Assembly: GCA_025362495.1 (NCBI GenBank)
Contig: JANYGI010000101.1
Location: 1 to 45,244 of the forward strand
Length of the DNA stretch: 45,244 nt
Direction: 5' to 3'
DNA from: Byssovorax sp.
Lineage (GTDB): Bacteria; Myxococcota_A; Polyangia; Polyangiales; Polyangiaceae
The position numbers and the translations under genes were made by a program. A model generated the notes under the pieces. The model had not been told where the DNA came from and did no database searches. It worked only from the letters and a program-made list of their open reading frames with translations. Below, one piece after another: positions 12,965 to 42,700 of this stretch; position 1 is the stretch's first letter, and the number at the start of each line of letters is the position of its first letter.

Positions 12965-13578
12965 AGATCAATGCCGCGGGCGTCCGGCGGGACGTGATCG
13001 TGATCGGTGCGTCCGCAGGAGGCTTCGAGGCAATCCGGGGCGTCGTCTCTCTTTTTCCGAAGGACATGCCCGCGATCGTGGGTGTCGTGCTGCACCGGGC
13101 TCCGTTCTTCAAGAGCGAGTTCGACCAGATCATGCAGCGCTGGTCACCGATGTCGGTGGTCGAGCCGACCGGGCCGACTCCGCTGGATCGGGGGACGATT
13201 TACCTCGCGCCGCCCGATCGTCACATGCGCTTCATGGGTAGCAGCCTGTTCCTCGATCGTGGTCCGAAGGAGCACTTCACGCGGCCCGCGGTCGACGCGC
13301 TGTTCATGTCGGCCGCCGAGGCGTTCGGGCCGCGCGTCGTGGGCGTCGTGCTCTCGGGGAACGGCTCGGATGGGCTGCTGGGCTGCCTGGCGATCAAGGC
13401 GGCCGGCGGGCTCGTGCTCGTACAGAACCCCGCGGAGGCGGAGTGCACGTCGATGCCAGTCGCGGCTCTCCGTCAAGACCATGTCGACGCGCACCTCGAC
13501 GTCAAGGAGATGGCCGACGTGCTCGGCCGCCTCGCTCTGGGAGCTACGGTCGAGCTGCCGAACGACCATGGCAAGTGA
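12961..13578 (+). CDS. Stand-alone CheB-type protein-glutamate methylesterase
   Basis: This 205-residue protein is a complete CheB catalytic domain without a receiver. The catalytic Ser is in IVIGASAGGFEAI (near residue 18), His in VVLHRAPFF and Asp in LSGNGSDGLLG. The motif is usually GMGSDG or GMGRDG; the Met is Asn here. IYLAPPDRHM and the substrate-loop segment ECTSMPVAA match the family. Its start overlaps the zinc-ribbon gene (ATGA, 12961-12964), with GGAG 6 nt upstream. It removes methyl groups or deamidates glutamines on a partner receptor or sensor in known systems. No chemoreceptor gene is present, so the substrate may be the divergent CheR/PAS protein or something elsewhere. The right inverted repeat begins 12 bp after its stop. 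Confidence 0.9.
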   Translation: MKINAAGVRRDVIVIGASAGGFEAIRGVVSLFPKDMPAIVGVVLHRAPFFKSEFDQIMQRWSPMSVVEPTGPTPLDRGTIYLAPPDRHMRFMGSSLFLDRGPKEHFTRPAVDALFMSAAEAFGPRVVGVVLSGNGSDGLLGCLAIKAAGGLVLVQNPAEAECTSMPVAALRQDHVDAHLDVKEMADVLGRLALGATVELPNDHGK

Positions 13579-26200: not shown

Positions 26201-29200
26201 GTCGTACAGCCGCGCCACGCGCGCGTAGCCGCGGCGCGCGGTGTCCCCGTCGAGGCCGGCCGCGCGCTGCTCCAGCACCTCGGCCAGCTCCTGCCAGCGT
26301 TGCCCGGCGGTCAGCGCGCTCGCGAGGCCGTCGAGCGCCTCGGCGTCGCGCGGATCTTCGGCGAGCGCCGATCGGTACGCGCGGATGGCCCGCTCCGCGT
26401 CGCCAGCCTCGGCCCAGGCGAGGCGCGAGAGCTCGGCCCGCGCCGCGCGTCGCGCCGGCGCCTCGGGCTCGATCGTCGCGAGCGTCTCGAGCACGTCGCA
26501 GCGCTGGAGCACGAGCTCGCGCGCAGCTTCACCACCACCGATCGCCGCGAGCCGCGCCCCGAGGAGGCGATCGAGATCTCGCGCAGCCGCGACCGCCGCC
26601 GGCTCCCCCGCGGGCGCGCTCGCGAGGATCACCTGGCGGAGGGCCGTCGCCCGCTCGACGTCGCCGAGATCGCGCTCGTAGACGGTGGCCGCGCGCGCGA
26701 GCAGATCGAGGCGCACCGCGCCCTCGGCCAGCTCCGCCGCAGCAGCCAGGGCGCCGGCGAGGCGCTCTTGCTTTCCGAGCTTCACGGCCAGCAGCGCCAG
26801 CTCTTCGCGATGCTCGACGATCGCGGGCTCGAGCAGCAGCAAGGCCGCCAGCCCCTCGAAGGCGCCGGCCTCGTCGCCGAGCTCGTCGAGCCGCAGCCGG
26901 ACGAGCGCTTTTTGCCGGTCCGCGCGCTCCGCCTTCGTCGCTGCGCCCTCGAGATCCACCTCCAGCACGCGCGCCAGATCCTGCGTGTTGCCGTCGGCGC
27001 GATACCGCACCTTGAGCCGCGCCGCCGCCGCGAGCCGCGCCGCCGTCGCCTCGGGGCTGGCGACGCCCGCCGACGCGCCGAGCACGCGCTCCAGCAGATC
27101 GTAGGCCTCGACGCGGCCCGGCTCGGCGTCGAGCATCGCTTCGAGGATCGCCACGGCGCTCGCCGGCTCGCCGAGCCCGTCGATCCACAGCCCGGCGATC
27201 CGCGCGCGGAGCTTCTGCGCGGCCTCGCCTTCGAGCGCGCCGAGCTGCCGCTCGAGCAGCGCGATCAGCGGCCGATGACGCCCGTGGCGCTCGTAGAGCC
27301 GCTCCAGCGCGGTGCGGATCCGCACGTCGTCGCGCAGCGCGAGGAGGGCCTCGAAGTAGCCCATCGCGCGGCCGGTATCGGCGGCGAGATCCTTCGCCGC
27401 GAGCGCCGCGTCCTCGAGCAGCTCGCGCCGCGTCGCGTGATCGTCGGTGCGCGCGATGACGTCGTCGTAGAGCGAGAACAGCTCGTCCCAGCGCTCACCG
27501 AGGTTGTACGTGAGCTTGAGGCGCTCGAACGCCCAGGTGGACAGCGGGGCCAGAGCCACCGTGCGACGCAGCAGGGCGACCACGGTCTCCTGATCGTCGA
27601 ACCACTCCTCGTGGTACTCGACCGCGCGTCGGCCGAGCTCCTCGATCGTCTCGCCTTCGACGCCGATCGGCAGCGGCCTCGGCTCGCCGCCGACCCCGAG
27701 CGCGCGGCGATACGCGGCCGCCACGCGATCGGCGCCGCCGACCTCGAGCGCGAGCGCCGAGGCGCGATCCCACGTCGCGAGATCGAACGGCGCTTCGTCG
27801 AGGGCGCGCAGGGCGATCCCGAGCGCGCGCTCCGGCGCGATCGACGGCTCGTCGAGCAGGCGCTCGAACCAGCCGCGGCGCGCCGGCGAGAGGTCGGCGA
27901 CGTCGGCGGGTGTCTCGAGGAGCAGCTCGTAGAGCGCAGCGCGGGCCTCCGCGTCGGGCGCGGCCTGCGCGGCGCGCTCCAGCAGCGCCGACGCCGCGGC
28001 CTGCGTCTCCGATCGCGCGAGCAGCCGCTTGACCAGAGCGATCGCCGGCCCCGACGCGCCCCCTTCGAGCACCGTCGCGATCCGCTCCAGCGCCTCCGCC
28101 GGTCGATCGAGGCGATCGAGAAGCAGCGTGGCGATCGCGAGGTCCTGCGCCGCCCGCGCGTCACCTTCCGCGCGATCGCGGCGCTGCAAGAGCAGGCTCA
28201 CCGCGCCCTCGGCGTCGCCGCGGACGAGGAGGATCCGCGCCCGCGCCGAGAGAGCGGCGTCATGCTCGGGATCGAGCGCGATCACCCGCTCGTACAGATC
28301 CGCCGCGGCCGCCGGATCCCCGAGCGCACCCTCCTCGGCCTCGGCCCACGCCACGAGCAGCGGCACGCGCGCAGCGGCCTCGGCACGCGCGACGCGGAAG
28401 CCAAAGAGCCACCGTCGGTCCGTCGCGCGCACGGCCCCGCGCGCCGCCAGGAACGCCTCGAAATCAGCCGCCGCCGCTTCCGTGTCTCCCTCGTCTGCCT
28501 CCAGAATCACGCGGTACTCCGCGGCGACCTCGGCGTCGCGCGCCGGGTCCGACGCCAGCACGCGCACCCGCGCCGCGCGCAGCGCCGAGCGCGTCTCCGC
28601 CGACAGCGCGGCGCCGCGCGGCGCTTCGAGCGCGGACGCCGACTGCGCGAGGAGCCAGTCGATCGCCCCCGCGCGCCGCAGCGCGTCCTCGTGATGGAGT
28701 AGCGTGCGCGCGGCGTCGTCGGCGTCAGGCGCGGTCCGCAGCAGCACCGCGATCGCCGCGGGCACGCGCTCCCACGCGTCGGCGTCGCGATAGAGTTCGA
28801 GCAGCGCCGACGCCGTGGCGCGATCGTCGGGCGTCACCGCGAGCACGCGCTCGTACAGCCGCTGCGCCGACGCCGCGTCACCCGCCTGCAGCGCGGCCTC
28901 GGCGGCGCGCACGAACGCCGCCGCGGCGGCCTCGGGGCGCGACAGCCGGCCACCCTCGATCTCGCCGATCCGCTCCAGCCACGTCGCCACGTCGCGCGGA
29001 TCCACGGCGATCGCCACGCGCCGCTCGATCGCCGCGCGCACCAGATCCACGTCGTCCGCCGCGCGCGCGACCTCCTCGATCGCCGCGAGCGCCTCGTCCC
29101 CCAGCGCCGCGTCGAGGCCGAGCAGCACGCCGTAGTGCTGCGCCGCGCGAGCGTGCCAGCCTTGCGCCACGGCGATCTCCGCGAGCCGCCGCAGCGTCGC

Positions 29201-31939
29201 GGTTCGATCGTCGCCCGTGGTCCGCTCGAGCAGCCCGCTGAGCTCCGCGTAGAGCGCCTCCCAGTCGCCGCGCGCCTCGTGGAGATCGAGCAGCTCCGCG
29301 AACGCCGTCTCGTCCGTCGGATCCTCGGCCAGCGCGCTCCGGTACGTGGCGACGGCCGCGGCCGTATCGCCGAGGGTCCGCCGCTCGATCGCCCCGATGG
29401 CGTACAGCAACGCCCGCCGCCGCGACGGATCCGTCGCGCGCCCGAGCGCCGCGCGATGCAGCGAGAGCCGCTCCTCGGGGCTCCCCTGCTCGCGCAGCAG
29501 ATCGTCCATCCGATCGTGGAGCTCGTGCGACGACGGCTCCGCCGCCAGCGCGCGCCGCAGCACCTCGAGCGCGCCGGCCACGTCGCCGCTCGCCGCGAGC
29601 GCGTCGCCCGCGCGGCGCGCGAGCAAGCTCAGCGCCGGGCCCACGATTTCCCGCTCACCCAGCACGCGCCGCAGCACCCCCGCGCTCCGCGTCGCGTCGG
29701 CCCCGGCCACCTGCTCGACGCGCTCGATCCACGCCGGGACGTCGGCCGGTGCGCCCTCGATCGCCAGCTCGAGCCCGCGCCCCGCGATGTCGACGGCGCG
29801 CTTCGGATCGCGCAGATCGCGGTGCGCGACGAGCGCCGCCTCGTGCAGCGCCTCGAGCCGATCTTCGACGCGATCGAGCAGCGCCGCGCGCGCCTCGAGC
29901 ACGCGGAGCAGCACCGTCCACGCGCCCTCGCTGCGCGCCAGCGGCTCGAGCACCTCGGCCGCCGCGAGCCGCAATTCCCCCGCGGCCAGCATCTTGTCGA
30001 GGGCGAGCCGGCTGGTCCGCTCCGCCGGATCGATCGCCAGGGCCTGCCGGTACGCATCGAGCGCGCCGCGCGCGTCGCCGAGGCGCGCCAGACGCACCTG
30101 GCCGAGCCGCGAGAAGATCCCCGCGCGCTCGTTCTCCGGCGCCGTCGCCGCGTCGGACCCGAGCGCCGCCGCGAGATCCTCCCAGCGCCGCTCCGTCTCG
30201 AGCAGCGGGATCAGCCGCGTCAGCGCCTCGCGCGTCGGCCCGTAGACGTCGATCCACGCCTTCCACGCGTCGAGCGCCGCGGCGCGATCGGGCAGCTTCG
30301 TCGAGCGGATCTCGGCCGCACGGAAGGCGATCTCGCGCGCGCTCGCCCGATCCGTCGCCTTGCTCGCGCGAAGGTCCAGCACCTCGCAGAGCTCCACGTA
30401 CGCGCCCGAGCCCTCGAGCAGCCGCTCGAGCGCGGTGAGCGCCTCGGCCTCTTCACTCGTCCCGAGCAGCTTGCGGTACGCGCCGATCGCTCCGACCGCG
30501 TCGCGCAGCTCGACCTCGTACAGGCTCGCGAGCCGCAGCGTCGCCGCGACGCGCGCCTCGTCCGTCGGCTCGATCTCCGCGAGCCGCCCGAGCGCCACGG
30601 CCAGCGCGCGATGGTCCTTCGCCTCCGCGCAGATCGTCTCCAGCGCCCGCGCCGCGCGCAGCGTCGCCGGATCTTCCGCGCGCGCGTCGAGCGCCGCCTG
30701 GTAGGCCACCCGAGCCTTGCGCGCGTCGCCGAGCTCCATCAACAGATCGCCGAGATCGGCGTTGATCCTCGCTCGCACGACGGGATCCTTGGCGCCAGTC
30801 GCGGCCCGCGTGAGCACCTTCGTCGCCTCGAGCTGCTTGTCGAGCGCCGAGGCGATCTTCACGAACCGCGCCCGCACCTCGTGGTCGGCGGGATCGAGCG
30901 GCAAGATCGCCTCGTCGAGCGCGAACGTCTTCTCGGGATCGGCCAGCCGCTCGAACGTCAGCGCCGAGAGCCGCTTCTGCGCGTCGAGCCGCTTCGGCCC
31001 GCGCAGCATCTCGATCTCGACGCCCAGCATCCGCGCCGCTTCGCCCGGCTCGCCCGACGCCTCGAACGCGCTCGACAGCGCTGACGCCGCGCGCGCCGCC
31101 ACGCCCTTGTGACCGAGCAATTCGCCGGCGATCGCCCGCGCCGCCGGGTGCGACGGATCGACGCGGAGCAGCTCTTCCACGTGCGGCAGCGCGCGCTCCA
31201 CCTCACCGAGCCCGCCCGCATAGAGCGAGATCAACCGCACGCGCAAGAGCCGCGTCGCGTCCACGTCGGGCGACGTCGCGTCCCCGGAAAGAGCCTGCTC
31301 CAGCAGCTTGGCCAGCTCCGCGAGCTTGCCGCCGCGCTCGTAGCAATCCTCCAGGGCCCGCCGCGAGGTCACGTCGGTGGGATCGATCTTGAGCACCTCC
31401 AGATGGATCTTCGCCGATCGATCCTCGTCGCCCGCCATCAGCACCGCGGCCTGCTGCAGCATCCGGAGCTGCTCGGCGCGCTCGGTCTGCAGGCCCGCCG
31501 CGGTCGCGTACATCTCGCCGAGCTTGCGATTCTCGCCCTTGCCCGACAGCACTGCCTCGAGCTTCTGGAACACCGTCGCGTCGCCGGGCGACAGCGAGAA
31601 CGCGCGCTCCAGGTAGGGCTCCGCGCCGTCGACGTCGCCGAACACCTCGGCGAAGAAGCTCCCCGCGTGGAGCAGGAACGCCGTCTGCGCGCCGGGGTTC
31701 ATGCTGCGGAGCTTCTTGTCCTTGCTGAAGCGCTCGTACGCGAACGCCAGCTCGGCGACGCGATCGTCGCGCAGCGCCGCGTCGTGCAGCTGCTCCCACA
31801 TGGCGTCGTGCGTCTGCCCGCGCGCCAGGGCGCTGACGAGCAGATCCAGCACGGCCGCCTCGTTCTCCAGCTTCTGCTGGAGCGCCGTGGCGAGGGTATC
31901 GATGCGGAGCGAGTTGCGGAGGGGCTTCGGATCGGACAT
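20237..31939 (-). CDS. Giant tetratricopeptide-repeat (TPR) protein, 3900 residues
   Basis: This is one uninterrupted frame of 3900 codons from the ATG at 31939. Nearly the whole length is helical repeats of about 34-40 residues with the TPR pattern: small residues at positions 8, 20 and 27, and phrases like AYRKALA.DP.D. Examples are AIAAYDLALSLRADDAGARRG, AVATYRSALAEDPTDETAF and AIRAYRSALAEDPRDAEALD. Repeats are highly diverged at DNA level. There is no signal peptide, membrane segment or catalytic domain. The N-terminus (residues 1-60) is a charged helical cap. The composition is very rich in Ala, Leu, Arg, Glu and Asp. TPR superhelices are protein-docking scaffolds; this one could be several hundred nanometres long if fully extended. 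The partner is unknown. It is divergent from the 32080 operon, with 140 bp between. Confidence 0.95.
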   Translation of the reverse strand: MSDPKPLRNSLRIDTLATALQQKLENEAAVLDLLVSALARGQTHDAMWEQLHDAALRDDRVAELAFAYERFSKDKKLRSMNPGAQTAFLLHAGSFFAEVFGDVDGAEPYLERAFSLSPGDATVFQKLEAVLSGKGENRKLGEMYATAAGLQTERAEQLRMLQQAAVLMAGDEDRSAKIHLEVLKIDPTDVTSRRALEDCYERGGKLAELAKLLEQALSGDATSPDVDATRLLRVRLISLYAGGLGEVERALPHVEELLRVDPSHPAARAIAGELLGHKGVAARAASALSSAFEASGEPGEAARMLGVEIEMLRGPKRLDAQKRLSALTFERLADPEKTFALDEAILPLDPADHEVRARFVKIASALDKQLEATKVLTRAATGAKDPVVRARINADLGDLLMELGDARKARVAYQAALDARAEDPATLRAARALETICAEAKDHRALAVALGRLAEIEPTDEARVAATLRLASLYEVELRDAVGAIGAYRKLLGTSEEAEALTALERLLEGSGAYVELCEVLDLRASKATDRASAREIAFRAAEIRSTKLPDRAAALDAWKAWIDVYGPTREALTRLIPLLETERRWEDLAAALGSDAATAPENERAGIFSRLGQVRLARLGDARGALDAYRQALAIDPAERTSRLALDKMLAAGELRLAAAEVLEPLARSEGAWTVLLRVLEARAALLDRVEDRLEALHEAALVAHRDLRDPKRAVDIAGRGLELAIEGAPADVPAWIERVEQVAGADATRSAGVLRRVLGEREIVGPALSLLARRAGDALAASGDVAGALEVLRRALAAEPSSHELHDRMDDLLREQGSPEERLSLHRAALGRATDPSRRRALLYAIGAIERRTLGDTAAAVATYRSALAEDPTDETAFAELLDLHEARGDWEALYAELSGLLERTTGDDRTATLRRLAEIAVAQGWHARAAQHYGVLLGLDAALGDEALAAIEEVARAADDVDLVRAAIERRVAIAVDPRDVATWLERIGEIEGGRLSRPEAAAAAFVRAAEAALQAGDAASAQRLYERVLAVTPDDRATASALLELYRDADAWERVPAAIAVLLRTAPDADDAARTLLHHEDALRRAGAIDWLLAQSASALEAPRGAALSAETRSALRAARVRVLASDPARDAEVAAEYRVILEADEGDTEAAAADFEAFLAARGAVRATDRRWLFGFRVARAEAAARVPLLVAWAEAEEGALGDPAAAADLYERVIALDPEHDAALSARARILLVRGDAEGAVSLLLQRRDRAEGDARAAQDLAIATLLLDRLDRPAEALERIATVLEGGASGPAIALVKRLLARSETQAAASALLERAAQAAPDAEARAALYELLLETPADVADLSPARRGWFERLLDEPSIAPERALGIALRALDEAPFDLATWDRASALALEVGGADRVAAAYRRALGVGGEPRPLPIGVEGETIEELGRRAVEYHEEWFDDQETVVALLRRTVALAPLSTWAFERLKLTYNLGERWDELFSLYDDVIARTDDHATRRELLEDAALAAKDLAADTGRAMGYFEALLALRDDVRIRTALERLYERHGRHRPLIALLERQLGALEGEAAQKLRARIAGLWIDGLGEPASAVAILEAMLDAEPGRVEAYDLLERVLGASAGVASPEATAARLAAAARLKVRYRADGNTQDLARVLEVDLEGAATKAERADRQKALVRLRLDELGDEAGAFEGLAALLLLEPAIVEHREELALLAVKLGKQERLAGALAAAAELAEGAVRLDLLARAATVYERDLGDVERATALRQVILASAPAGEPAAVAAARDLDRLLGARLAAIGGGEAARELVLQRCDVLETLATIEPEAPARRAARAELSRLAWAEAGDAERAIRAYRSALAEDPRDAEALDGLASALTAGQRWQELAEVLEQRAAGLDGDTARRGYARVARLYDEQIGDAARAITAWTELRARFGEDAESADALAALLEKTSRWTELAALLEHEAAITAEPSRGADLWVRVGDLHRERTGSLGEAIAAYDLALSLRADDAGARRGLEALVARLGSTDGGVSAKDAPALLGSATTLLGRIYTAADDWAGTIALLEPRLVAAADDGARAAILVETAGLLERRRGDASAAFDATFRALSLAPTDGLADSAIRLADTADRTDVLAAALGAGFDARPDVSPLVARALLWHVALWERDRRLDLVAAEAALTRVLALDPDHLDVLEALAAVQRRSPDRALIATLQRLAVASGGDLDRWAEAAEIAEGAVADRALATSIAETVLAAATDRWTEPRRAGSRFETASRAAAWAIDVLVRLALADDAGLGAKLAVEIYRRSALLPFDAAERRRLRVAAAELAEAPARIAIYEELFGENPTDPVASERLDALYRGHERAADLVRLRERQIAVAVDGDRRATLRFDLAELLAASRDDAGAIAALRENLAELTAHEPSGARLAELLEAGGHHLDLVALTETQAARLEGDGDTRGAAKLWASAALRAEEQLADATRAIADHRRATALGEGASAAALARLLIARGDHLGAARVLEDLSEQASPEALSALALRLTDAYLAAGDPDAARARLERYLPRSSEPEVLRERLATLYREAEAWEPLAGLIAESASRAPSTEARAALLCEAAAIHVDHRDDPASAVPLLHEASTLTPDEGNLRRRLASALIASGRLDEAATALRVLLAGYGTRRPKERGLVHYELARVSLAAGDRAAAVAELELALRIDPAQPEILHLQARLALEEGQLERAARTYRALLLVVKRPREERGPGGVSRAELLFELCEIAQLQGDPERSAEYLESAFETARETVPEAERLLAALRTRKRHDVLARALEAKLATGPAGAAAASLLDELAGLYDEHLGRAAEALDARLRVLAVAPPTAARLDAARELAARLGATGRFVAAVAGLADREPDAPRSIELRLQIARALDTDGGDLASAAAAYHAAEALLEPDGDSARLDGVRAALARIHELRGDTAALAELLEKQIARAADGPAAAEPLYRLAALRLADPSQHAAATELLDRALAADPQNDRAESLLRGALAIAPGSAPVLAALEHFARETGRDRLLVEALLLLWECEPRAGESRRLDSSQIEEAVAIADRLGDRPLVESLLEKAISRAESVGDAAFGWAISLLAERRLEDGRLADAVTLKERAARAAEPERERALLLEAAGIAAGPLVDLATAARILEELRSREPAEREIWQPLAEVYRRLGDRDRLAVLLDETAKILDSAAERAELRLERARMVMVDDELRAITLLEEIVEDDPTAVPAAKLLTDLLEKHGRKEALIAVLGRRIDVAKDRQDVPVIVALSLRLGALMEQEWDEGGALDLYHAALDWDGKNRDLLRAIVRIGMAREDSMALGSALDQLLVVEQGEPAAELALRLARIRAAHEDGEGAELALEQGFAACPTNVELREELIRRYEVSESWGKLAALHVAEADAQPAKAARVASLCLAADILRSRAGDAAGAAAILVRALDLDPTDRDVLLALVDAYGALGEHARAVEAVGIALAVTPEDAWLYRARASLHEALGDEHRALLDLEQAHWRSGGGYAGELVLLLERAASAPRGTSNDERLAGRALHLRLAEVLSMAGEIDRARAELVELTRTDGQDRAALRALASLEDKHGAWDVATAAYLRLLPLEDDEGLTAAALKLADACERGGHLGEARSALERARDVAPHSAAVRVRLRDVYNVLGAGRELAQLILEDAAASTDAAVKCGLLLHAGRLLLDGGEAPAHAAAVLEEARSLLAPQPPSAGPRADEQEILLLLADAYVLIGRGGDARTLLDIAVAAHKGRRSKQLAAVHRKRAQLELSVGDRAAALAALTRSFEGDPQNAALAMELGELAIELKDLELASRAYRGATLMKLSPSGSTEGVPLVARAHAYFQLARIAVAQGDRRKARLMIDKAVADDATHEGARHLLEQLRAG

Positions 31940-32079
31940 GAGCGCGCCCCGGAACGTATCAAGCCCTCTGCGAAAAGGATGCTCCTCGCAACGAACCGCA
32001 CAGTTCTGCCGTTTACACGGGCATTCGAGGCCACCCGGGTATCATCACCTCGCATGACCCCGAGCCCGACGAGCCGCGG

Positions 32080-33537
32080 ATGACCGGCCCCTTCCCGAAC
32101 CGCCCTCGCCTCGCCGATCACGTGCTCGCGCGGCGCCACATCACCGGCGGCGAGGCTGTCGTCGTCCTCCACGATCAGCGCACGGGCGGCTTGGTCCAGC
32201 TCGGCCCGCGCGAGTGGGGCCTCCTCGCGGCCGCCGACGGCACACGCGATCTCGAAGGCATCATCCTTGCCGCTCGCCGCGAAGGCGCGCACGCCCGGGT
32301 CCCCGCGCTCCGCGCCTTTCTCGAGCAGCTCCACGGCGCCGGTCTCCTCGCCGACGGCGCGCCCGACGACGCGGCGTCGCCCGACGGATTGCCTGCGATC
32401 GACGCGCCCGCCGAGGCCGAGAGCCTCCCCGACGACCGCCCGCTCGACGTCCTCCCGGACTTCTCGCTTCATTGCGACGGCAGCGGAAGTTGCTGCCGTA
32501 TCTATGCCTCGGTGATCTTCGGCCCGGTCGAGGCCGCCCGCGCCCGCGCTCTCTACCCCGACATTCAAGGCGGAGGCGACCGCCACGAAAAGAACTTCCT
32601 CCCCGATCACGGCTCCGCCCCCACCGGAGGATCCGCCGTCACCCTCGTCGACGGCCGCTGCGCCTACCTCGGCGAATCAGGCCATTGCTCGATCCACGCC
32701 CGCGCCGGCGGCGCCGCCAAGCCCCTTGGCTGTAACCTCTTTCCGGCGAGCTTCGTCGATGACGGCGAGCGCGTCGCCGTCTCCGCATCCGTCGAGTGCG
32801 CCTGCATCCTCGCCAGCGCCGGCCGCCGCGGTGGAGCCCCGTTGATCCCGCCCGGGGCTCGTTTTCGAGGCGATCTCGATCCCGCGGTCTTCATCGCCGG
32901 CCTCCCTCCGAGCCTCGCCATCACCCGCGCTGGGCGCGCCGATCGCGCCGCCGTCCGCGCCTGGTCCCGCCGCGTCGCGGCCCTCTCCCCTCCATCCGAC
33001 GTCGCCCGGACGCTCTGGTCCCTCGCCGCGACCATCGACGACAGCGGCCTCGACGCCGATCCCGCGCCCAGCTTCAACGCCCCTCCCGCCATCGAGGCTT
33101 CAGGGCTCCTCGCCTGGATTGACGCCCTCGCCTGCCGCGCCGCTCGCCGCGTCCGCGAAGATGCCGTGTGGCGAAGCGAGCGTGATCTCGCCCGCCTCGC
33201 CTCCTCGTGGATCTCCGAGGCCGCGAGCGGGCTGCTCGCGCTCGACCCGTTCGCCGTCCCGGCCCCCGCTCCCTCCGTCGCCGCGAGCGAGGCCTTCTAT
33301 CTTCGCGCCGCGCTCCACGGCTACAAGCTCTTCGGCGATCTGCCCCTCACCGTCGCCCTCCGCGACCGCGCCGTCCGCCTCGTCGTCGCCCGCGCGCTAC
33401 CCGACGTCTTCGCTCGCACCCGGGCTGACGATCCTGCCTGCGCTCACCCGCTCGCGCTCGTCGAAGCCATGCTCCGCGGCCACGGCCTCGACGCCTATGC
33501 CCACGACCTCGAGAGAGTCCATGACGACGATTCTTGA
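32080..33537 (+). CDS. PqqD-like domain fused to a YkgJ-type cysteine-cluster domain
   Basis: This is a 485-residue protein. Residues 15-92 resemble a PqqD-like winged-helix/RRE domain: VVVLHDQRTGGLVQLGPREW, then LLAAADGTRDLEGII and FLEQLHGAGLLADG. Residues 125-245 hold a cysteine cluster of YkgJ/FliB (CxxxxxCC) type: C132, C138 and C139 in HCDGSGSCC, then C194 (GRCAYLG), C203 (GHCSIH), C218 (PLGCNLFP), and C240 and C242. These would bind a metal or Fe-S cluster. The last 240 residues are Arg/Ala-rich helices with no recognised domain. It is the first gene of a four-gene overlapping operon. A nine-codon ORF (32054-32083) ends in ATGA at its start. The PqqD assignment is by eye and moderately secure; the cysteine cluster is firm. 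Confidence 0.85.
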   Translation: MTGPFPNRPRLADHVLARRHITGGEAVVVLHDQRTGGLVQLGPREWGLLAAADGTRDLEGIILAARREGAHARVPALRAFLEQLHGAGLLADGAPDDAASPDGLPAIDAPAEAESLPDDRPLDVLPDFSLHCDGSGSCCRIYASVIFGPVEAARARALYPDIQGGGDRHEKNFLPDHGSAPTGGSAVTLVDGRCAYLGESGHCSIHARAGGAAKPLGCNLFPASFVDDGERVAVSASVECACILASAGRRGGAPLIPPGARFRGDLDPAVFIAGLPPSLAITRAGRADRAAVRAWSRRVAALSPPSDVARTLWSLAATIDDSGLDADPAPSFNAPPAIEASGLLAWIDALACRAARRVREDAVWRSERDLARLASSWISEAASGLLALDPFAVPAPAPSVAASEAFYLRAALHGYKLFGDLPLTVALRDRAVRLVVARALPDVFARTRADDPACAHPLALVEAMLRGHGLDAYAHDLERVHDDDS

Positions 33538-34618
33538 CGATCCAGGCGGGCTCGCCCCGGCGGCCTTCAACGCAGCTCCCGCCGCGGGGCCCCGGCTCTC
33601 TCTCCCTTCGCGGCCGGATCGCGCGGCGATGCTCCGCGCGCTCGTCGGCACGGCGGATCCTGCCATTCGCCCCTTTACGCTCGGCATCCGGGCCACGGCG
33701 CGCCGACACTTCGAGCTGCACATCGTCCCTCGCATCGCGGAGCACTGGCCCGCTCTGCTCCGCGAGCGCTTCTATCAGAAGCTCCAGATCGGCGCCTGCG
33801 ATCTCTACGCCTCGGCCCCCTACACGGCGCTCTTCTGCGCCCCGCGGCGCCCGCTCCTGGTGCGGGCCGTGACCGACCTCGGGAACGCGTTGCCCTTGCC
33901 CACGTCGGTGCTCGCGCAGCTCGGGCGCGGAGCGATGAGCGCTCTCGGTCGCTTCGCCTACGCCGCCGCCCATCGCCGGATCATCCTCATCGCCTCGTTC
34001 ATCGTGCTCGTCGATCACGTGTTCGATCACTGCATGACCGAGCCGCCGGAAGAGCGCGAACGGAAGCTCCTGCGCGTGCTCCGCGGCGAAGAGCGCCCGA
34101 CGACTCCCGAGCTCGCGCTCACCGCGTCCTTTGCGACCGCGATGGCAGAGGGGCTCGAGCCGCACGAGCGCGCGGCCTTCGACGCGGCGATGGACCGAGT
34201 GTACGCCTGGATTCACGCCGAGGTCCGCGCGATGCTCGGAGAGCCCGATCCCGCAGGTCTCGGTCACCGCCTCGCCGGCATCGAGGGCACGATTGATGGG
34301 CTCCTGTTTCCAGTCGTCCAGTACGGCGGCGAGGGGGCGCGAGCGTGGATGTACGACGTCTCGCTGTTCGTGCAGATCGCCGACGACTGGCTCGATTACG
34401 AGCTCGATCTCGCGTCCGACCGCAGCACGCCCGTGCTCACGGGCGACTGGACCTTTCGCGATCTGGAGGCCTCCTGGCAGCGCTCGATCACCGGCCTCGC
34501 GCGCCTCGTCGCGGACGCCGGGCTCACCTCGCCGCGCTACGGTAGTTTTGTGCGAGAGGCCTACGTGCTGATGATGAGCGAGGTGCTCGAAGCCATGGCT
34601 CAACGGCCCGACGAATGA
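33521..34618 (+). CDS. Class 1 isoprenoid-synthase-like protein
   Basis: This is a 365-residue all-helical protein from the ATG at 33521, which overlaps the upstream gene by 17 nt; the frame is open further upstream but is antisense-like there. Two Asp-rich motifs on helices, DHVFDH (165-170) after a hydrophobic helix and ADDWLDYELD (287-296), are placed like the two Mg2+/diphosphate-binding motifs of trans-isoprenoid synthases. The aromatic/hydrophobic helices between them fit that fold. The first motif starts DH rather than DD, so it could be a divergent or inactive member. The predicted role is condensation or cyclisation of prenyl diphosphate, but substrate and product are unknown. It overlaps the next gene (ATGA). 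Confidence 0.7.
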   Translation: MTTILDDPGGLAPAAFNAAPAAGPRLSLPSRPDRAAMLRALVGTADPAIRPFTLGIRATARRHFELHIVPRIAEHWPALLRERFYQKLQIGACDLYASAPYTALFCAPRRPLLVRAVTDLGNALPLPTSVLAQLGRGAMSALGRFAYAAAHRRIILIASFIVLVDHVFDHCMTEPPEERERKLLRVLRGEERPTTPELALTASFATAMAEGLEPHERAAFDAAMDRVYAWIHAEVRAMLGEPDPAGLGHRLAGIEGTIDGLLFPVVQYGGEGARAWMYDVSLFVQIADDWLDYELDLASDRSTPVLTGDWTFRDLEASWQRSITGLARLVADAGLTSPRYGSFVREAYVLMMSEVLEAMAQRPDE

Positions 34619-35559
34619 CATCGTCACCGCGCGACAACCCCGCTCCGGGGACGCCCGAGCACAGCAGATCTCCGGCCCGGGGAGCCCCGCCTGGACGCCT
34701 CGCGCCGGTCGTCCTCGTGACCGGCAAGGGCGGAGTCGGCAAGACCACGATCGCCGCCGGCCTCGCGGTGCTCGACGCGGAGCTTCACGGCCGATCCGTG
34801 CTGGTGGAGCTCGGAGATGGCCAATCCGGCGAGCGAGCGCTGGCGGGCGCGCCGGGGGGCGTCGAGCACCTCGTCATCCGCCCCGACGAGGCGATCCAGC
34901 GCGGCGCGGCGCCCCTCTTCGGCTCCGCCGTGCTCGCCCGGATCGCCCTCGGAAACTTCGCGATGAGGCCTCTTCTGCGCGCGGCGCCGGCGATCCGTGA
35001 GCTCGCGATGCTGGAGTCCGTACGGCAGATAGCCGCCGAGCGCCCGGGGGTCCGCGTCGTCGTCGACATGCCCGCCACTGGCCACAGCGTCGCCTGGTTG
35101 CGCGTCCCCCAGCAAGGAAAGGACTTTCTCGGCGAAGGACGCCTGTTCGATCTCTGCGATCGCGTCGGGAGAGAGCTGCTCTCCCCCGCTCACGCTTCCA
35201 TCGTCGTCGTCACCCTCCCCGAGCGGCTGGTCCTCGAAGAGACCCTGGAGCTGTGCTCGGCCATCGAGCGCGACGCCGGGATGAGCGTGGCGCGCCTCGT
35301 CGTGAACCACCTGCCCGTCGCGCTCCCCGAGGCCGCGCTCCGGGACGCCGCGGCGCGCGCCGTGTCAGGCCCTCTCGCAGCGTCGTTCGCCGAGCTGACC
35401 CGGGTCCTCGAGGCGCGCGTCGCGATCAGCGAGGCCGCGCGCGTCGCGCTGGAAACCCTGGTCGACAGCGCTCATGCCCTCTGGCACCTCCCTCGCGCGC
35501 CGATCGATCCTTCCGCGCGGGATGTCGCGCGCTGGCTCCGCGCCGCCGGGGCCGGATGA
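34615..35559 (+). CDS. ArsA-like P-loop ATPase, subunit 1 (with signature lysine)
   Basis: This is a 314-residue protein. After a disordered 30-residue leader comes the deviant Walker A GKGGVGKTT (37-45) with the extra signature lysine of the ArsA/GET3/MinD class. A switch segment VVVDMPATGHSVAWLRVP matches the DxAPTGH element. VTLPERLVLEETLELCSAIE and the following VARLVVNHLP match the family's distal part. Family members use ATP-driven dimer changes to move metalloid ions or tail-anchored membrane proteins or to regulate a partner. No arsB or arsenic genes are nearby, so an arsenite role is unlikely. ATGA overlaps on both sides tie it to the isoprenoid-like gene and to the second ATPase. 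Confidence 0.88.
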   Translation: MTSSPRDNPAPGTPEHSRSPARGAPPGRLAPVVLVTGKGGVGKTTIAAGLAVLDAELHGRSVLVELGDGQSGERALAGAPGGVEHLVIRPDEAIQRGAAPLFGSAVLARIALGNFAMRPLLRAAPAIRELAMLESVRQIAAERPGVRVVVDMPATGHSVAWLRVPQQGKDFLGEGRLFDLCDRVGRELLSPAHASIVVVTLPERLVLEETLELCSAIERDAGMSVARLVVNHLPVALPEAALRDAAARAVSGPLAASFAELTRVLEARVAISEAARVALETLVDSAHALWHLPRAPIDPSARDVARWLRAAGAG

Positions 35560-36704
35560 AGGCCGGAGCGCGACTGCCAATCTCCTCCGCCGAGCCCCGG
35601 GTCATCGTCTGTGTCGGCGGCGGCGGCGTCGGCAAGACCACGACGGCCGCCGCCCTCGCCCTCGCGCTCGCGGCCGCCGGCTCACGCACGCTGATCGTCA
35701 CCATCGATCCTGCGCGTCGCCTCGCCGGCGCGCTCGGCGTACCGATCTCGGACGAGGTCACGCCGGTGCAGCTGGAGATCGCCGCCGGTAGACTCCATGC
35801 CTTGATGCCCGACCCGAAGCGCTCGCTCCACACCTTCCTCGACTACCTGTTCGAGGGAAAACCCGAGGGCCGCGCCCGTCTCCTCACCAACGCGCTGTAC
35901 CTCGGCCTCTCCGACGCCGCGGCCGGGATGCACGAGCTCGTGGCGATGACGCTGGTGGCCAAGGCCTCGGCGGAAGGTCGATTCGACGTGGTGGTGATCG
36001 ACACCGCCCCTTCGCGCCACGCGATCGATTTCGTGACCTACCCGGGGCGCCTCGCCGCGTTGCTCGGCGGCCGCACGGTGGGCTGGCTAGCCGGCCTCTC
36101 CGAGCGCGCCGGCGAGGGCGACCAGGGCCGGCGTGGAGCGCGCTCCTGGACCGCTGGTCGGGTCGAAAGCCTCCTCGCCCGGGTGGCCGGTCCACACCTG
36201 CTGCGCGACACTGCCGCTCTCTTCGCCGAGCTCGCCACGGTGCGTGAGCGCTTCGTCGCCCTCACCGGGAGCGCCTCGAATCTCCTCCTCGGCGATCGCG
36301 CCGCCTACGTGCTCGTCGCGGCGCCCACCGCCGCGGCGCGCGACGACGTGCTCTACCTCGCGAAGCGCCTCGCGAAGCTCGGCCTCTCGCCGCGCGCCGT
36401 CGTGCTCAACCGCGCAGACCTCCAGCCCGCGCCGTTCGTGGCCGCGCTGAAGGGTGAAAGGGGTCTCCCGGCCTCGATCGTCGACGCGCTCGCCGTGCTC
36501 GAAACTGAGCGCGAGAGTCGCGCCGCTGCGGCAACCACCCTCGAACGCGAGCTCCGGCCTCTCGCCCCCGTCCCGGTGCTGCGACTGCCCTTCATCGAGC
36601 AGAGCGCGCCCGAGGCCATCGTGAAAGAGCTCCGCCTGAGCCTCGCGCCGCACCTCGACGTGCTCTTGCCCGGCGCGACCCGGGCGAGAGCACGCGAAGA
36701 GTGA
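35556..36704 (+). CDS. ArsA-like P-loop ATPase, subunit 2 (no signature lysine)
   Basis: This is a 382-residue protein from the ATG at 35556, overlapping the first ATPase (ATGA). Its Walker A is GGGGVGKTTT (21-30): the catalytic Lys is present, but the signature Lys of the family is Gly. TIDPARRLAGALGV, typical of ArsA, and VIDTAPSRHAIDF (switch II) follow. The middle carries a variable segment (about residues 185-215), and LVAAPTAAARDDVLYLAKRL lies in the distal half. Pairs of such ATPases, one with and one without the signature lysine, are familiar in actinobacteria and myxobacteria and are expected to form a heterodimer; that is inferred here. It is the last gene of the operon, ending 9 bp before the convergent NRPS stop. 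Confidence 0.88.
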   Translation: MKAGARLPISSAEPRVIVCVGGGGVGKTTTAAALALALAAAGSRTLIVTIDPARRLAGALGVPISDEVTPVQLEIAAGRLHALMPDPKRSLHTFLDYLFEGKPEGRARLLTNALYLGLSDAAAGMHELVAMTLVAKASAEGRFDVVVIDTAPSRHAIDFVTYPGRLAALLGGRTVGWLAGLSERAGEGDQGRRGARSWTAGRVESLLARVAGPHLLRDTAALFAELATVRERFVALTGSASNLLLGDRAAYVLVAAPTAAARDDVLYLAKRLAKLGLSPRAVVLNRADLQPAPFVAALKGERGLPASIVDALAVLETERESRAAAATTLERELRPLAPVPVLRLPFIEQSAPEAIVKELRLSLAPHLDVLLPGATRARAREE

Positions 36705-36713
36705 CCACACCTT

Positions 36714-39700
36714 TCAGATGTCGTCGTCCAGATCGAGCGAGTCCATCACGTCGTCGAGATCTTCCCGGCTCAGGTTGGCCTTGTCGAAGTCCGAAGGCGT
36801 GTAGCCGCCGGCCTCCGGAGCGAGGCAGTGCGCTATCAGCTCGCGCAAGGCCTCCATCACCCGCGCCGACAGCGCCTCGATCGTCTCGGCGCGATACTGA
36901 TTCTCACTGTACGCCCAGCGAATGCCGAGGCGGCCGTGGAGCACGCTCGACCGGACGTCGAGCTGATATCGCCGCAACGCCCGCACGCTGTGCGACGGAC
37001 CGACGGACTCGCGCGCCATCCGGAAAGGCGACGACTCCGGGAACGCGTGATCGAGCTGCCCCAGGTAATTGAAGCTCACCTGAGCCTGCGGCAACGCCAC
37101 GAGCTTTGCCGCAATCGCATCTCCCTCGCCGCGGAGATACCGCAGGAGCCCGTAGCCGAGGCCCCGCCCCGGCACGGCGCGCAGCGTCTCCTTCACCGAC
37201 GTCAACACCTCTCCTGGGCCGTCGCGGCCGGGCACGTCGAGCAGCACCGGGAACACCGTGGTGAACCACCCGACCGTGCGCGTGAGATCCGCGTCTTCGA
37301 AGACCTCCTCGCGCCCGTGGCCCTCGAGATCCACCAGCACCGACCGGGCCCCTGTCCAGCGCGTCAACGCGAGCACGACGGCCGAGAGCAGCACATCGTT
37401 GATCTGCGTCCGGTAGGCCTCGGGCACCTTGCGGAGCAGCGCGTCCGTCTCGTCTTCGGTGAGCGAGAGCGACACCGCGCGGAGGCTCGCCTCGGTGTTC
37501 TCCCCGCCCTCGTGATCGACCGGCAGGCGCCACACCTCCGCGCGCGACGGCGTGATCCAGTAAGCGGCCTCGTCGGTCAGCGCCTCCGAGCCCGCGTGCG
37601 CCGTCAGCTTCTCGGCCCACTGCTTGAACGAGGTGGTCTTGGCCGGGAGCGACATCGCCTCTCCGCGGCGGCGCTGCTCGTAGGCCGTCCAGAGATCCTC
37701 GAACAGGATCCGCCAGGAGACGCCGTCGCAGGCGAGGTGGTGAATCACCAGGAAGAGCCGGTTGGAGCGGGTATCTCCGAGATCGAACAGCACAGCGCGC
37801 AGCGCCGGCCCGCGCGCCAGATCGAGGCTTTCCTGCACGTCGGCCGCGGTCTGCTCCATCGCTCGGGTCTGCGCGTCCTCGGGGACGCCCTGGAGGGCGA
37901 TCCTCTGGAACGGAGTCTCTTCTCCGATCGCGGCGAGCCGCGGCAGCGCCCCACTGGCACCCACGTCGAGCCGCACCCGGAGCGCGTCGTGGTGCTCGAT
38001 CAAGCACCCCAGCGCCGCGGAGATGGCCTCGGCGTCGAGCGCCTCGCGCACCTCGAGGAAGTACGCTTGATTGTAGTGCGAAGGCGAAGCGACCCTCTGC
38101 TCCAGCCACCAGCGCGCGATCGGCGTGAGCGGGATCTCGCCGGTCACGGCTCCTTGCTCGGCCGTCGACGCGCCGGCCACGCCCGCGACCTCCGCCAGCT
38201 CGGCGATCGTCTGGTATTGAAAGAGCTGCCGCGGGGTGATCTTCACCCCCGCGTCCGCCGCTCGCCACACGATCTGGATCGAGAGAATCGAGTCGCCGCC
38301 CAGCTCGAAGAAGTTGTCGTGGATACCCACCTTCGGGAGCCGCAGCACCTGGGCCCATACCCGCGACAGGGCCTCTTCCGCCGGGCTCCGCGGCGCCACG
38401 AACGACTCGCCGAGCGTGAGCCGCTCGCCGGCCTCGGGCGCCGGGAGGGCCCGGCGATCGACCTTGCCATTCGACGTCAACGGCAGCTGCTCGAGGAGCA
38501 CGAACGCCGCCGGGACCATGTACTCCGGCAGCTTCTCCTTCAGGAACGCGCGCAGCTCACCCACCGTCGGGCCCTGCCCTGCGGCGCAGACCAGGTAACC
38601 GACCAGGCGCTTTTCGCCCGGCCCGTCCTCGCGCGCGAGCACGATCGCCTCGCGCACCGCCGCGTGCTGCTCCAGCACCGACTCGATCTCTCCGAGCTCG
38701 ATGCGGAAGCCGCGGATCTTCACCTGATGATCGATGCGCCCGAGGTACTCGACATCTCCGTTCGGGAGATGACGCGCGAGATCACCCGTCTTGTAGAGGC
38801 GCCCACCCGGCTTCGTCCCGAGCGTGTCCGGGAAGAAGCGCTCGGCCGTCAGCTCGGGCCGCCGCAGATAGCCTCTCGACACGCCCGCTCCGCCGACGAG
38901 CATCTCGCCCGGGACGCCGATCGGCACCAGGTTTCGTCGGCCGTCAACGATGTAGACGTCGAGATCCGGGATGGGACACCCGATGACGCTGGACCACGGT
39001 CGCTGCAGATCGGCGAGGCTCACCGGCCGGTACGTCACGTGGACGGTGGTCTCGGTAATGCCATACATGTTGACGAGCTGCGGCTTGCGGTCACCGTGGC
39101 GCGCCCAGAACGGCTCGAGGTCCGCGAGATCCAGCGCCTCGCCCCCGAACACCACATACCGGAGCTGGAGGTGCCGCTGCGCCTCGATCCCGGCCTCTTG
39201 CTCCGCGAAGATCAACTGACGGAACGCCGACGGCGTCTGGTTGAGCACCGTGACGCCCTCGTCGCCGAGCAGCTTGTAGAACGCGTCCGGCGCGCGGCTG
39301 ACCCAGTAGGGCACCACGACGAGGCGACCACCGTAGAGGAGCGCGCCCCAGAGCTCCCACACCGAGAAATCGAACGCGTACGAGTGGAACAGCGTCCACA
39401 CGTCGGTCCCGTCGAAGTGATACCAATCGTCCGTGGCGTCGAACAGGCGCACCACGTTCTCGTGCGTGACCATCGCCCCCTTGGGCTTCCCGGTCGAGCC
39501 CGAGGTGTAGATGACATACGCCAGATCGCCCGGCTCCGCGCCGGCGAGGCGGCTCGACGGCTCCGCGGCGATGACCTCTGCATCGGTGTCGAGACAGACC
39601 ACCTTCGCGGCGAGCTCCGGCAGCGAGGCGGCGTGGGTCGACTCGGTCACGATGACCGGCACCTGCGAGTCCTCGACCATGAACGCCAGGCGATCCTTCG

Positions 39701-42700
39701 GGTACTCGGGATCGAGCGGCAGATACGCGCCGCCGGCCTTGAGCACGCCGAGGATGGCGATCACCATCGAGAGCGAGCGCTGCACGCAGATGCCAGTGAG
39801 CACCTCGCGCCCGACTCCCAGCTTGCGGAGGTGCTGAGCGAGCCGCGACGCCCGCGCGTCGAGCTCGCGGTACGTGAGGCTCTCTCCCTCGAACGACGCC
39901 GCGATCGCGTCGGGCGTCCGATCGACCTGGGCCTCGAAGCGCTCGTGGATCGCGCTCGTGACCGGGAAATCCCGGGCTCCGCTCCGGACCCCGGTCAGCA
40001 GGCGCGCGCGCTCGTCTGCCGTCAGCAAAGGCAGCTCGAACAGCCGAGCTTCGGGGCTCTCGACGATGCCCCGGAGCAGCGTCCGGAGGTGCCCCACCAT
40101 CCGCTCGATCGTGGCCCGGTCGAAGAGGTCAGTCGAGTATTCGAAGATCCCGCGCAGCCCCGACGGCCCTTGCATCAGGCTCAACGTCAGATCGAACTTC
40201 GAGGTCGACACCTCCGGATAGGCCGCGCGCAGGGTGAGCCCCGGGAGCGTCATCGCCTCGATCGGCGCCGCCTGGAGCTGGAAGAGCACCTGGAACAGCG
40301 GAGTCCGCCCGAGATCGCGATCGGGCGCGAGCTGCTGCACCAGGCTCTCGAACGGCATGTCCTGGTGGGCATAGCCGCCGATGCAGACCTCGCGCACCCG
40401 GGCCAGCAGCTCGATGAACGGGAGATCGTCCGTCATCTGCGCGCGCATCACCAGGGTATTGATGAAGAAGCCAATCAGGCTCTCGAGCTCGGCCTTGGCG
40501 CGGTTGGCGACCGGCGTCCCGATCAGGATGTCCGTCTGCCCGGTGTACCGGTGCAGCAGCACGCTGAACGCTGCCAGCATGGTCATGAACAGCGTGGTCC
40601 CCTCGCGTCGCGAGAGGGCCGTCAGCGCCGCGGCGAGCTCGGCAGGCAAGGTGAAGCCGAGGTGAGCGCCCCTGTGGGTCGACACCGGCGGACGCGGGCG
40701 ATCGGCCGGAAGCTCCAGCACCCGCGGCGCCCCATCGAGCGCCGTTTTCCAGTACTCGAGCTGCTTTTCCAGCACCTCGCCGTCGAGCCAGCGACGCTGC
40801 CAGTGCGCGTAGTCGGCATACTGGATCGACAGCGGCGCGAGCCGCGCCGGCCGGTCCGCGCGGAAGGCCTCGTAGAGCGCGCCGATCTCGGTGTTGAGGA
40901 TACCCCGCGTCCACGCGTCGGACACGATGTGGTGCAGCGTCAACAGGAGGACATGATCCTCGGCGGCGAGGCGGAGCAGCTTGACGCGGAGGAGCGGCCC
41001 GCGCGCGAGATCGAAGGGCCGGTTGGCCTCGGCGAGGGCCTCTTGCTTCGCGGCTTCCTCGCGCGCGTCGGGCGCGAGAGCCCCGAAGTCGGAGACTGGC
41101 AGTCGGACCGAGACGTCGGCGTGGATCATCAGGCTCGGGCGCCCGTTCACGGTGGTGAACGTGGTTCGAAGCACCTCGTGTCGACGCACGACCTCGCGCA
41201 CGGCGCGCTCCAGCGCTCCGGTGTCGAGCCGCCCGTGCAAGCGCCACCCGACAGGCACGTTGTAGAACGAGCTCCCCGGCTCGAGCTGATCGAGAAACCA
41301 CAGGCGCTCTTGCGAGAACGAGAGCTCCATCCCGCCGCCGCGCGGGACGGGCACGATCGCCGGCACGAGCAGCCCAAAGCCCTCGCGGACCGACTCCTCG
41401 ATCACCCCGGCGAGCCCACGGATCGTCGGCTTCTCGAAGATGGCGCGGAGCGAAATCTCGGCCTGGAAGGCGTCGCGGGCGCGGGCGATGATCTGGATGG
41501 CGAGCAGCGAGTGGCCGCCGAGATCGGCGAAGCTCTCGTCGATGCCAATCTGGTCCTTGCCAAAGACGTCTTCCCAGATCGCCGCCAGCACCTCTTCGGT
41601 GGGGTTGCGCGGCGCGGACGTCTGCGCCTCCACCGGAGCGGCGAGCCGATCGAGCGCCGCGAGGGCCTGGCGATCGATCTTGCCATTCGACGTGAGCGGG
41701 AGCGCCGGGAGCACGCTGATCGACGCCGGTACCATGTACTCGGGCAGCCGCGCCGCGATGAAGGCCGCGAGCGCCGCGGGCTCCATCGACGCGCCGGACC
41801 GCGCGACGACGAACGCCGCAAGGTGCTTGTTGCCCGAGCCTCCCGCCACGTCGTCGAGCGCGAGCACGACGGCGTCCTGGAGCGCGGGGTGCGACGCGAG
41901 CGAGGCCTCGATCTCGCCGAGCTCGATCCGGAAACCGCGGATTTTCACCTGGAAATCGATGCGACCGAGGAACACCAGGGTCCCGTCCGCGAGGCGGCGG
42001 ACGCGATCGCCGGTGCGGTACATCCGCGCTGTCGGCTCGCCCGCAAAGGGATCACGGACGAAGCGCTCGGCGGTCAGATCCGGCCTCCCGAGGTAGCCCC
42101 GCGCGACGCCGCTGCCCCCGATGTAGGCCTCGCCGTGGACGCCGATCGGCACGGGCTTCTGCTGCGCGTCGAGCACGTAAACACGGCTGTTCGGGAGCGG
42201 GCGACCGAGCGGAACAATCGCCGTGCCCGGCACCGTTTGCCCCTTCTCGACCGGGTACGTCAGGACGCCGACCGTGGTCTCGGTCGGGCCGTAGTGGTTC
42301 ATGATCCGGGCCTCCGGAGCGAGCTTCTCGACGCGGGCGATCAGGTCCCAGTTCGACCCTTCGCCGCCGAGGACGAGGAGCTTTCGCGGGATCACCCGCT
42401 CGGGGTGCGCGCCCGAGAGGAGCGCCGAGAGGTGCGAAGGGACGATCTTGAGACAGTCAATCTCCTCGCGGGCGAAGTACGCGCCGAGCTGGTCGGGATC
42501 CGTCGTCATCTCCTGGGCGATGACGTGGAGCGTGCCTCCGAGGCAGAGCGGCGGGAAGAGCACCGTATTGCCGAGATCGGCCGAGAACGTCGAGATGTGC
42601 GCGTAGCTCGCCGTGGTCGGCAAATCGAGCCGCTCCGCCACGCCGAACACGTAGTTGACGAGCTGCCGATGCTCGATGGCGACGCCCTTCGGCTTCCCGG

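Follow-up and report, generated by a model that had tools for sequence, protein, structure and literature searches.

Four overlapping open reading frames (ORFs), p1 to p4, lie on a Byssovorax sp. contig (JANYGI010000101.1) of 45,244 nt, the whole of which was analysed (the window, G000:C9:1-45244) and which belongs to a 10.8-Mb draft genome. A first-pass annotation had taken all four as almost certainly one unit. Comparison with other genomes shrinks this idea to three genes: p2, p3 and p4 constitute a real, unnamed module, patchily distributed in myxobacteria and their relatives, in which a predicted isoprenoid-synthase-like protein accompanies two ATPases of the ArsA/Get3 superfamily. How the three work together is a tentative proposal, to which we return below. 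The four ORFs are as follows.

32080-33537, + strand: p1, 485 aa; predicted RRE/PqqD-like domain plus YkgJ/FliB-like Cys cluster; local neighbour outside the conserved module
33521-34618, + strand: p2, 365 aa; predicted class I isoprenoid-synthase-like protein that forms the module's core; without a named family
34615-35559, + strand: p3, 314 aa; ArsA/Get3-superfamily ATPase, BagA (Rv3679)-like partner
35556-36704, + strand: p4, 382 aa; ArsA/Get3-superfamily ATPase, BagB (Rv3680)-like partner

The overlaps that had been described are present. p1 and p2 share 17 nt (33521-33537; 41 nt if the in-frame ATG at 33497 is used), and both p2/p3 (34615-34618) and p3/p4 (35556-35559) overlap by ATGA. 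Because homologues are conserved in other genomes, we regard p1-p4, on sequence grounds, as genes rather than chance ORFs. Their codon scores are partly circular, as all four belonged to the training set.

Linkage and inheritance of the module

Homologues of p2 were sought in 60 genomes of the same family, in 282 genomes of the phylum and in one scan of GTDB species genomes. With weak partial matches and duplicates removed, the set comprises 14 loci in 14 genomes (the window, L007-L009, L011-L015 and L036-L040). The rows removed were those of G026 (E 4.4e-5, within a 1599-aa frame, with no match at E<=1 to the 14-row profile), G186 (66 positions, in a 91-aa frame) and G054 (41 positions, E 0.649); L034 and L035, whose contigs are as long as those of L012 and L011, were treated as their duplicates. 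Flanks of the p2 loci vary in length, and some contigs are short (e.g. L036, with 1.6 kb upstream of p2).

The genes for p3 and p4 adjoin p2 in 11 of the 14 loci, all except L012, L014 and L015. This proportion becomes 8/11 when the four genomes of one genus (g52, L037-L040) are counted once and L013-L015 are treated as separate genera. No fewer than three family codes (f1, f5, f6) are represented among the linked loci, and the join between p3 and p4 is a start/stop overlap or contact. At L009 the gene order is p3-p4-p2, which indicates that the link outlives rearrangement. L012, a contig of 7.1 kb, bears p2 but lacks p3/p4; elsewhere in its genome (G171), on a different contig, lies a p3-p4 pair that falls in the p2-linked clade. 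Genome-wide co-occurrence and gene order had been suggested as a check on the four families, and the outcome is split: p2, p3 and p4 stay together, and p1 does not. What is conserved, very probably, is an accessory module made up of three genes, p2-p3-p4.

The p4 sequences were compared in a tree of 34, a chosen set rather than a census, obtained with a 'quick' search. Homologues of p4 at E<=1e-20 occur in 59 of the 60 family genomes, mostly at 30-40% identity and with diverse neighbours; below 1e-55, the count (taken from a table) is 16/60. In the tree, the 11 p2-linked sequences and three unlinked ones form a group with a Shimodaira–Hasegawa-like approximate likelihood ratio (SH-aLRT) value of 91, the 13 remaining sequences of this type group at 89, and seven distant ones group at 100. 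The p2-linkage label changes 3 times, compared to 9.5 in shuffles. One of the three unlinked sequences comes from a genome with p2 elsewhere (G171), and the other two come from genomes with none detectable (G023, G009).

Trees of p2 and of p3+p4 share groups that cut across family codes. Both place the window and L007 (f1) with L011 and L036 (f6) and L013, and both place L008 (f1) with f5 genomes; each grouping is starred in both trees. L009 and L012 are placed differently in the two trees, each of which is rooted at the midpoint. The correlation of pairwise distances is 0.92 for both p2-p3 and p2-p4 (12 genomes in each case) and 0.95 for p3-p4. Transfer of the module as a block would produce such shared groupings, as would loss among old paralogues.

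Several observations weigh against a strict functional tie. Plain co-inheritance also predicts correlated distances and shared groups, and hence the correlation is only supporting. The genomes of L014 and L015, in which p2 has diverged most (41% and 39% identity), hold only distant p4 homologues (33-34% identity), so p2 can evidently do without the ATPase pair. Conversely, two members of the p4 clade, L071 and L072, occur in two genomes without detectable p2, G023 and G009 (drafts 92% and 95% complete), and p3/p4-type pairs also exist without p2, beside varied genes. When gene neighbourhoods were compared, no biosynthetic neighbour common to the p2 loci was found. It could be, then, that p2 and p3/p4 are functionally independent and owe their proximity to being inherited or mobilised jointly as one small block. 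The unpaired p2 of L014 and L015, the p2-free pairs and the patchy distribution of p2, which is found in at least 9 of the 282 genomes of the phylum (counting that of the window but not one 66-position match; a lower bound, as seven candidates were scored per listed genome), are all compatible with this idea. A search of 72,556 plasmid records gave 0 matches to p2. Yet adjacency in 11 of 14 loci and at least three family codes, the changed order at L009, the start/stop overlaps and the confinement of p2-linked p4 mostly to one clade argue against independence, which we regard as somewhat unlikely.

The predicted isoprenoid-synthase-like protein and its ATPase pair

None of the models in Pfam and NCBIfam matched the p2 protein of the window at E<=1, and neither PF00494 nor PF00348 matched it at E<=10. 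PF00494 matches one of the 14 p2 members (E 3.3e-4), and no PDB sequence relatives of p2 were found up to E 1. An AlphaFold2 model, computed from the 14-sequence alignment, has a predicted local distance difference test (pLDDT) score of 85.7 and a predicted template modelling (pTM) score of 0.84. Against the PDB, the 50 Foldseek rows displayed for this model are all terpene synthases (probability 0.98-1.0), with one row, Sat1646, counted as such via a related VIA entry titled diterpene synthase. VIA aligned the model to epi-isozizaene synthase (4lz3; Z 16.8, root-mean-square deviation (rmsd) 4.1, 263 aligned) and to heptaprenyl diphosphate synthase (5h9d; Z 15.6, rmsd 3.5, 241 aligned), with Z still 14.6 at rank 50. 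One caveat here is that helical bundles with Z under about 13 may mean little, and helical controls reached a best Z of about 14; the margin over chance thus appears modest among the top matches and clear by rank 50. The case for the fold is strengthened by the displayed rows all belonging to one superfamily. In the predicted model, p2 shows the all-helical fold of the class I isoprenoid synthase superfamily, in line with the fold that the first-pass annotation had suggested for the protein starting at 33521.

Class I isoprenoid synthases have a characteristic layout, with one Asp motif ending each of two long helices. The p2 alignment contains 62 columns that are invariant in all 14 sequences, and two motifs stand out.

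34013-34027, + strand: D165-H-V-F-D169, the first Asp motif of p2, followed by H170, where predicted helix 148-171 ends; D165, H166, D169 and H170 invariant in 14/14
34373-34432, + strand: second motif of p2, Q285xxDDxxDxxxD296, then R301xTP304; at or after the end of predicted helix 248-291

In the region of the second motif, Q285, D288, D289, D292, D296, R301, T303 and P304 are invariant in 14/14, as are K87 and R179 elsewhere in the protein. A second metal motif (DDxxD or equivalent) is therefore present in every member, as D288 D289 xx D292.

Three results count against reading p2 as such an enzyme. First, the initial motif reads DHxxD in 14/14 rather than the canonical DDxx(D/E). Second, Foldseek returned no match below E 0.001, the best being 4.8e-3. 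Third, profile comparison by hhalign, which used 14 of 17 prenyl synthase matches and 8 of 11 squalene/phytoene synthase matches found in six genomes, gave weak scores: E 0.0039 (probability 8.6%, across 29 columns at the second motif) for the former and E 0.079 (over the second Asp motif) for the latter. These alignments are too weak to prove homology or settle the subfamily. Considering the predicted structure, p2 represents an isoprenoid-synthase-like family that was missed by the sequence libraries used.

Comparison with known enzymes gives a mixed picture. Like epi-isozizaene, aristolochene and geosmin synthases, p2 has the predicted class I terpene synthase fold, with an Asp-rich motif ending each of two helices. 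It differs from these enzymes in having no sequence-family match, in its first motif (DHxxD) and in its second, which is DDxxDxxxD rather than NSE/DTE, the names given to the second motif of terpene synthases. The QxxDDxxD...RxTP of p2 resembles both QxxDDxLD...K.T of trans-prenyl diphosphate synthases (PF00348) and QLTNILRDVxED...GRxYLP of squalene/phytoene synthases (PF00494). Compared to these two groups, p2 has an apparent insertion, judging by spacing, of helices 98-145 before the first motif.

Assignment of p3 and p4 to the Get3/ArsA type, as had been claimed for them, holds. Both exceed the Pfam cut-off of 24.3 for PF02374 (ArsA_ATPase), with 56 bits for p3 and 80.5 bits for p4. In the PDB, three ArsA chains lead the matches to p3 (best 1f48, 9.1e-11), followed by Rv3679 (6bs3_A, E 6.6e-7), and the top match to p4 is Rv3680 (6bs3_B, E 2e-34). 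Cut-offs of more specific models are unmet: p3 scores 49.3 bits for BagA (NF053622, cut-off 400), p4 scores 168.2 bits for BagB (NF053621, cut-off 521), and the two score 44.8 and 72.7 for TIGR00345 (cut-off 135). The P-loops of the two proteins are distinct.

34723-34749, + strand: P-loop of p3, GKGGVGKTT, with the signature lysine (from the sequence); GKGGVGK(T/S) in 11/11 p2-linked p3
35616-35642, + strand: P-loop of p4, GGGGVGKTT, without the signature lysine (from the sequence); GGGGVGKT in 11/11 p2-linked p4

All 11 p2-linked pairs hence consist of two dissimilar ATPases with the signature lysine in the first only, and p3 and p4 would together make up a heterodimeric ATPase of the Get3/ArsA/BagAB type. 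The closest known counterpart is the mycobacterial Rv3679/Rv3680 (BagA/BagB; PDB 6bs3-6bs5), likewise two unlike ArsA/Get3-superfamily proteins; the P-loop of the Rv3680 chain, GAGGVGKTT, also lacks the signature lysine. The pair described here differs in falling far under the BagA/BagB equivalog cut-offs and in belonging to a unit that includes an isoprenoid-synthase-like gene, which, to our knowledge, the mycobacterial bagAB operon does not. With Get3/TRC40/ArsA, p3 and p4 share the superfamily and P-loops, as well as a DPARRL stretch in p4, but they form an unlike pair rather than a single Get3 or a fused ArsA. According to PMC10597346, bagAB protects mycobacteria against glycerol and nitric oxide toxicity, and citrate-tolerant mutants carried insertions in the M. 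smegmatis bagAB homologues; its passages on these effects name no client.

Given the resemblance to Get3 and Rv3679/Rv3680, p3/p4 could be a protein-targeting pair for tail-anchored or other membrane proteins, with p2 a catalytically dead or regulatory isoprenoid-binding subunit, sensing a prenyl diphosphate or a membrane lipid and gating the ATPases. The unusual first motif of p2, DHxxDH, would be in keeping with such a role. However, all 14 members keep every Asp of the two motifs, which argues for chemistry. Moreover, our neighbourhood comparison found no tail-anchored client gene common to the p2 loci, and two genomes have p2 without this type of pair. We think this explanation unlikely.

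The upstream gene and the surroundings of the module

Although p1 overlaps p2 in the window, it lies outside the conserved module. This follows from its distribution: p1 adjoins p2 in one of the 14 p2 loci, that of the window, and it often occurs where p2 does not. No p1 was found by tblastn (E<=0.01) in the other 13 loci, whose flank lengths vary and some of whose contigs are short. Homologues of p1 (E<=1e-20) are present in 14 of the 60 family genomes, in 12 of which no p2 was found. G029 has p1 and p2 on different contigs (C374 and C420), and the window genome carries a second p1 copy (C177). In ten further p1 loci (L093-L102), p2, p3 and p4 were not found within 1.5-kb flanks, and the neighbours of p1 vary between loci. 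The position of p1 upstream of p2 is therefore local gene order.

Structure prediction agrees with the earlier description of p1 itself. The p1 model (pLDDT 82.5) has an RRE-type winged helix at its N-terminus, for which the six top-ranked Foldseek matches are RREs of lasso-peptide B1 proteins (probability 0.98-1.0, TMt 0.59-0.75, E 0.02-0.16); PqqD structures are also matched. VIA scores are modest, with Z of 4.5-4.7 for B1 RREs, 5.3 for TruD and 6.5 for a KICSTOR-GATOR1 chain. The predicted RRE/PqqD-like N-terminus is thus convincing by Foldseek ranking and modest by Z. At the sequence level, PqqD (PF05402) matches one of 15 p1 members (E 0.01), and p1 of the window has no such match at E<=1. 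The metal-type Cys cluster that had been noted corresponds to eight Cys residues (132, 138, 139, 194, 203, 218, 240 and 242), invariant in the 15 members, in a YkgJ/FliB-like region. Matches at E<=1 to CxxCxxCC and to FliB were obtained for 13/15 members each; p1 of the window scores 17.1 bits for CxxCxxCC/YkgJ (PF03692), under the Pfam cut-off of 23. The alignment excludes L101, which has an internal stop, and shorter, second or unlisted copies. Overall, p1 resembles YkgJ/FliB-like and RRE/PqqD domains in its Cys region and fold, but stays under curated cut-offs.

The first-pass annotation had proposed, as one idea, modification or targeting of a peptide or protein. In its full form, p1 would recognise a peptide, p2 would prenylate it and p3/p4 would deliver it to the membrane. 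The 17-nt p1/p2 overlap and the RRE/PqqD-like fold are what one would expect of such a system; the single case of adjacency, the 12 p1-bearing genomes without p2, the varied neighbours and the separate contigs in G029 are not. Linkage of p1 rules out a conserved four-gene system, and we consider the arrangement highly improbable. The peptide-modification idea, based as it was on p1, loses its support with it.

Other genes accompany p1 elsewhere. A small ORF lies directly upstream of p1 in L087 (9620-9898, the C177 copy of the window genome), L090 (10238-10672) and L101 (943-1464), and the three ORFs look alike by eye; such an ORF is more likely to be a partner of p1 than p2 is. In L096 (2972-3712) and L097 (683-1423), p1 is followed by a 246-aa protein that we take, from the look of its sequence, to be PqqC/heme-oxygenase-like and that may be a partner of the PqqD-like p1. 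In L092 (G064:C119, 5371-9214, - strand), a p1 relative overlaps genes for a DUF5685 protein (PF18937, E 4.2e-33) and a 337-aa protein. The latter contains LTKVDDQVID and appeared isoprenoid-synthase-like by eye; no match to p2 was found (hhalign E 0.21), and it was set aside.

Flanking the four ORFs of the window are a single ORF of 3900 aa (20237-31939, - strand), divergent from p1 and with TPR-like repeats judged by eye, and a convergent ORF (36714-45239) that runs up to the contig end and was named nonribosomal peptide synthetase (NRPS)-like from its sequence. A link to this NRPS had been raised as unproven. A comparison of the ORFs lying up to 9 kb from p2 at the remaining 13 loci, some of them on contigs that end sooner, gave matches to it for AMP-ligase-like ORFs in L039 and L040 alone, which lends the link no support. 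A scan of 31850-36900 found 0 promoters and 0 terminators; shuffles expect 0.1 and 1.1, respectively, making this result of little informative value. We also considered a defence system and rejected it: PADLOC models gave no match to p1 or p2 at E<=0.01, and other matches were weak and confined to the P-loop (best 4.6e-5, p4).

Near p2, the only extra recurrent gene is an ORF of 230-260 aa (L008 6261-7118, L039 8856-9629, L040 8933-9706). It precedes p2 under two family codes (f1, f5), stopping just short of it in L039 and L040; the two copies tested have no Pfam match. Genes that converge with the module in genus g52 (L037 1-723, L039 12749-16636, L040 12829-16713) resemble, by the look of their sequences, oleD, oleC and oleA, of long-chain olefin synthesis. 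About 0.9 kb after p4 in L008, an ORF judged by eye to be RND/MMPL-type transporter-like (12154-13161) runs off the contig end.

A proposed mechanism and what it would mean

The linkage of a gene resembling those of prenyl enzymes to a Get3/BagAB-type pair suggests that what the ATPases handle is p2, the compound that it makes or a client in the membrane. In the mechanism that we tentatively put forward, an isoprenoid-diphosphate enzyme would work with the Get3/BagAB-like pair. Going by the model, p2 would be a non-canonical class I isoprenoid synthase, probably binding an allylic (prenyl) diphosphate by way of Mg2+ that the two Asp-rich helices keep in place, and it would couple, cyclise or transfer the prenyl group. 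The p3 and p4 proteins would form a heterodimer, with the signature lysine in p3 alone, in which ATP binding and hydrolysis open and close a hydrophobic groove. This groove may accommodate p2 itself, the hydrophobic compound that it makes or a membrane protein that makes use of that compound, and the pair would then deliver this cargo to the membrane. The data show that the genes are linked, that their trees mostly agree, that p2 has the predicted fold and invariant motifs described above and that p3 and p4 belong to the named ATPase family; catalysis, substrate, heterodimer and client are what we infer for the module. The more specific idea that the heterodimer carries to the membrane a hydrophobic product of p2-type isoprenoid synthases, and not a tail-anchored protein, is an improbable one at present.

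We know of no clients of bacterial Get3-like ATPase pairs. A search of open-licence PMC articles found no paper joining an ArsA or anion-transporting ATPase to a terpene, polyprenyl or isoprenoid synthase. Overlapping reading frames alone are no proof of a unit, as illustrated by p1, which overlaps p2 by 17 nt and is unlinked to it elsewhere. For p2-p3-p4, the linked enzyme of predicted lipid-type fold provides a concrete and cheap hypothesis for what a Get3-like pair handles, and p2 itself defines an isoprenoid-synthase-like protein family in bacteria rich in natural products. If a lipid product does prove to be the client, the BagAB-like class of ATPases would gain its first defined kind of client, and the module would be a dedicated bacterial machine for lipid handling.

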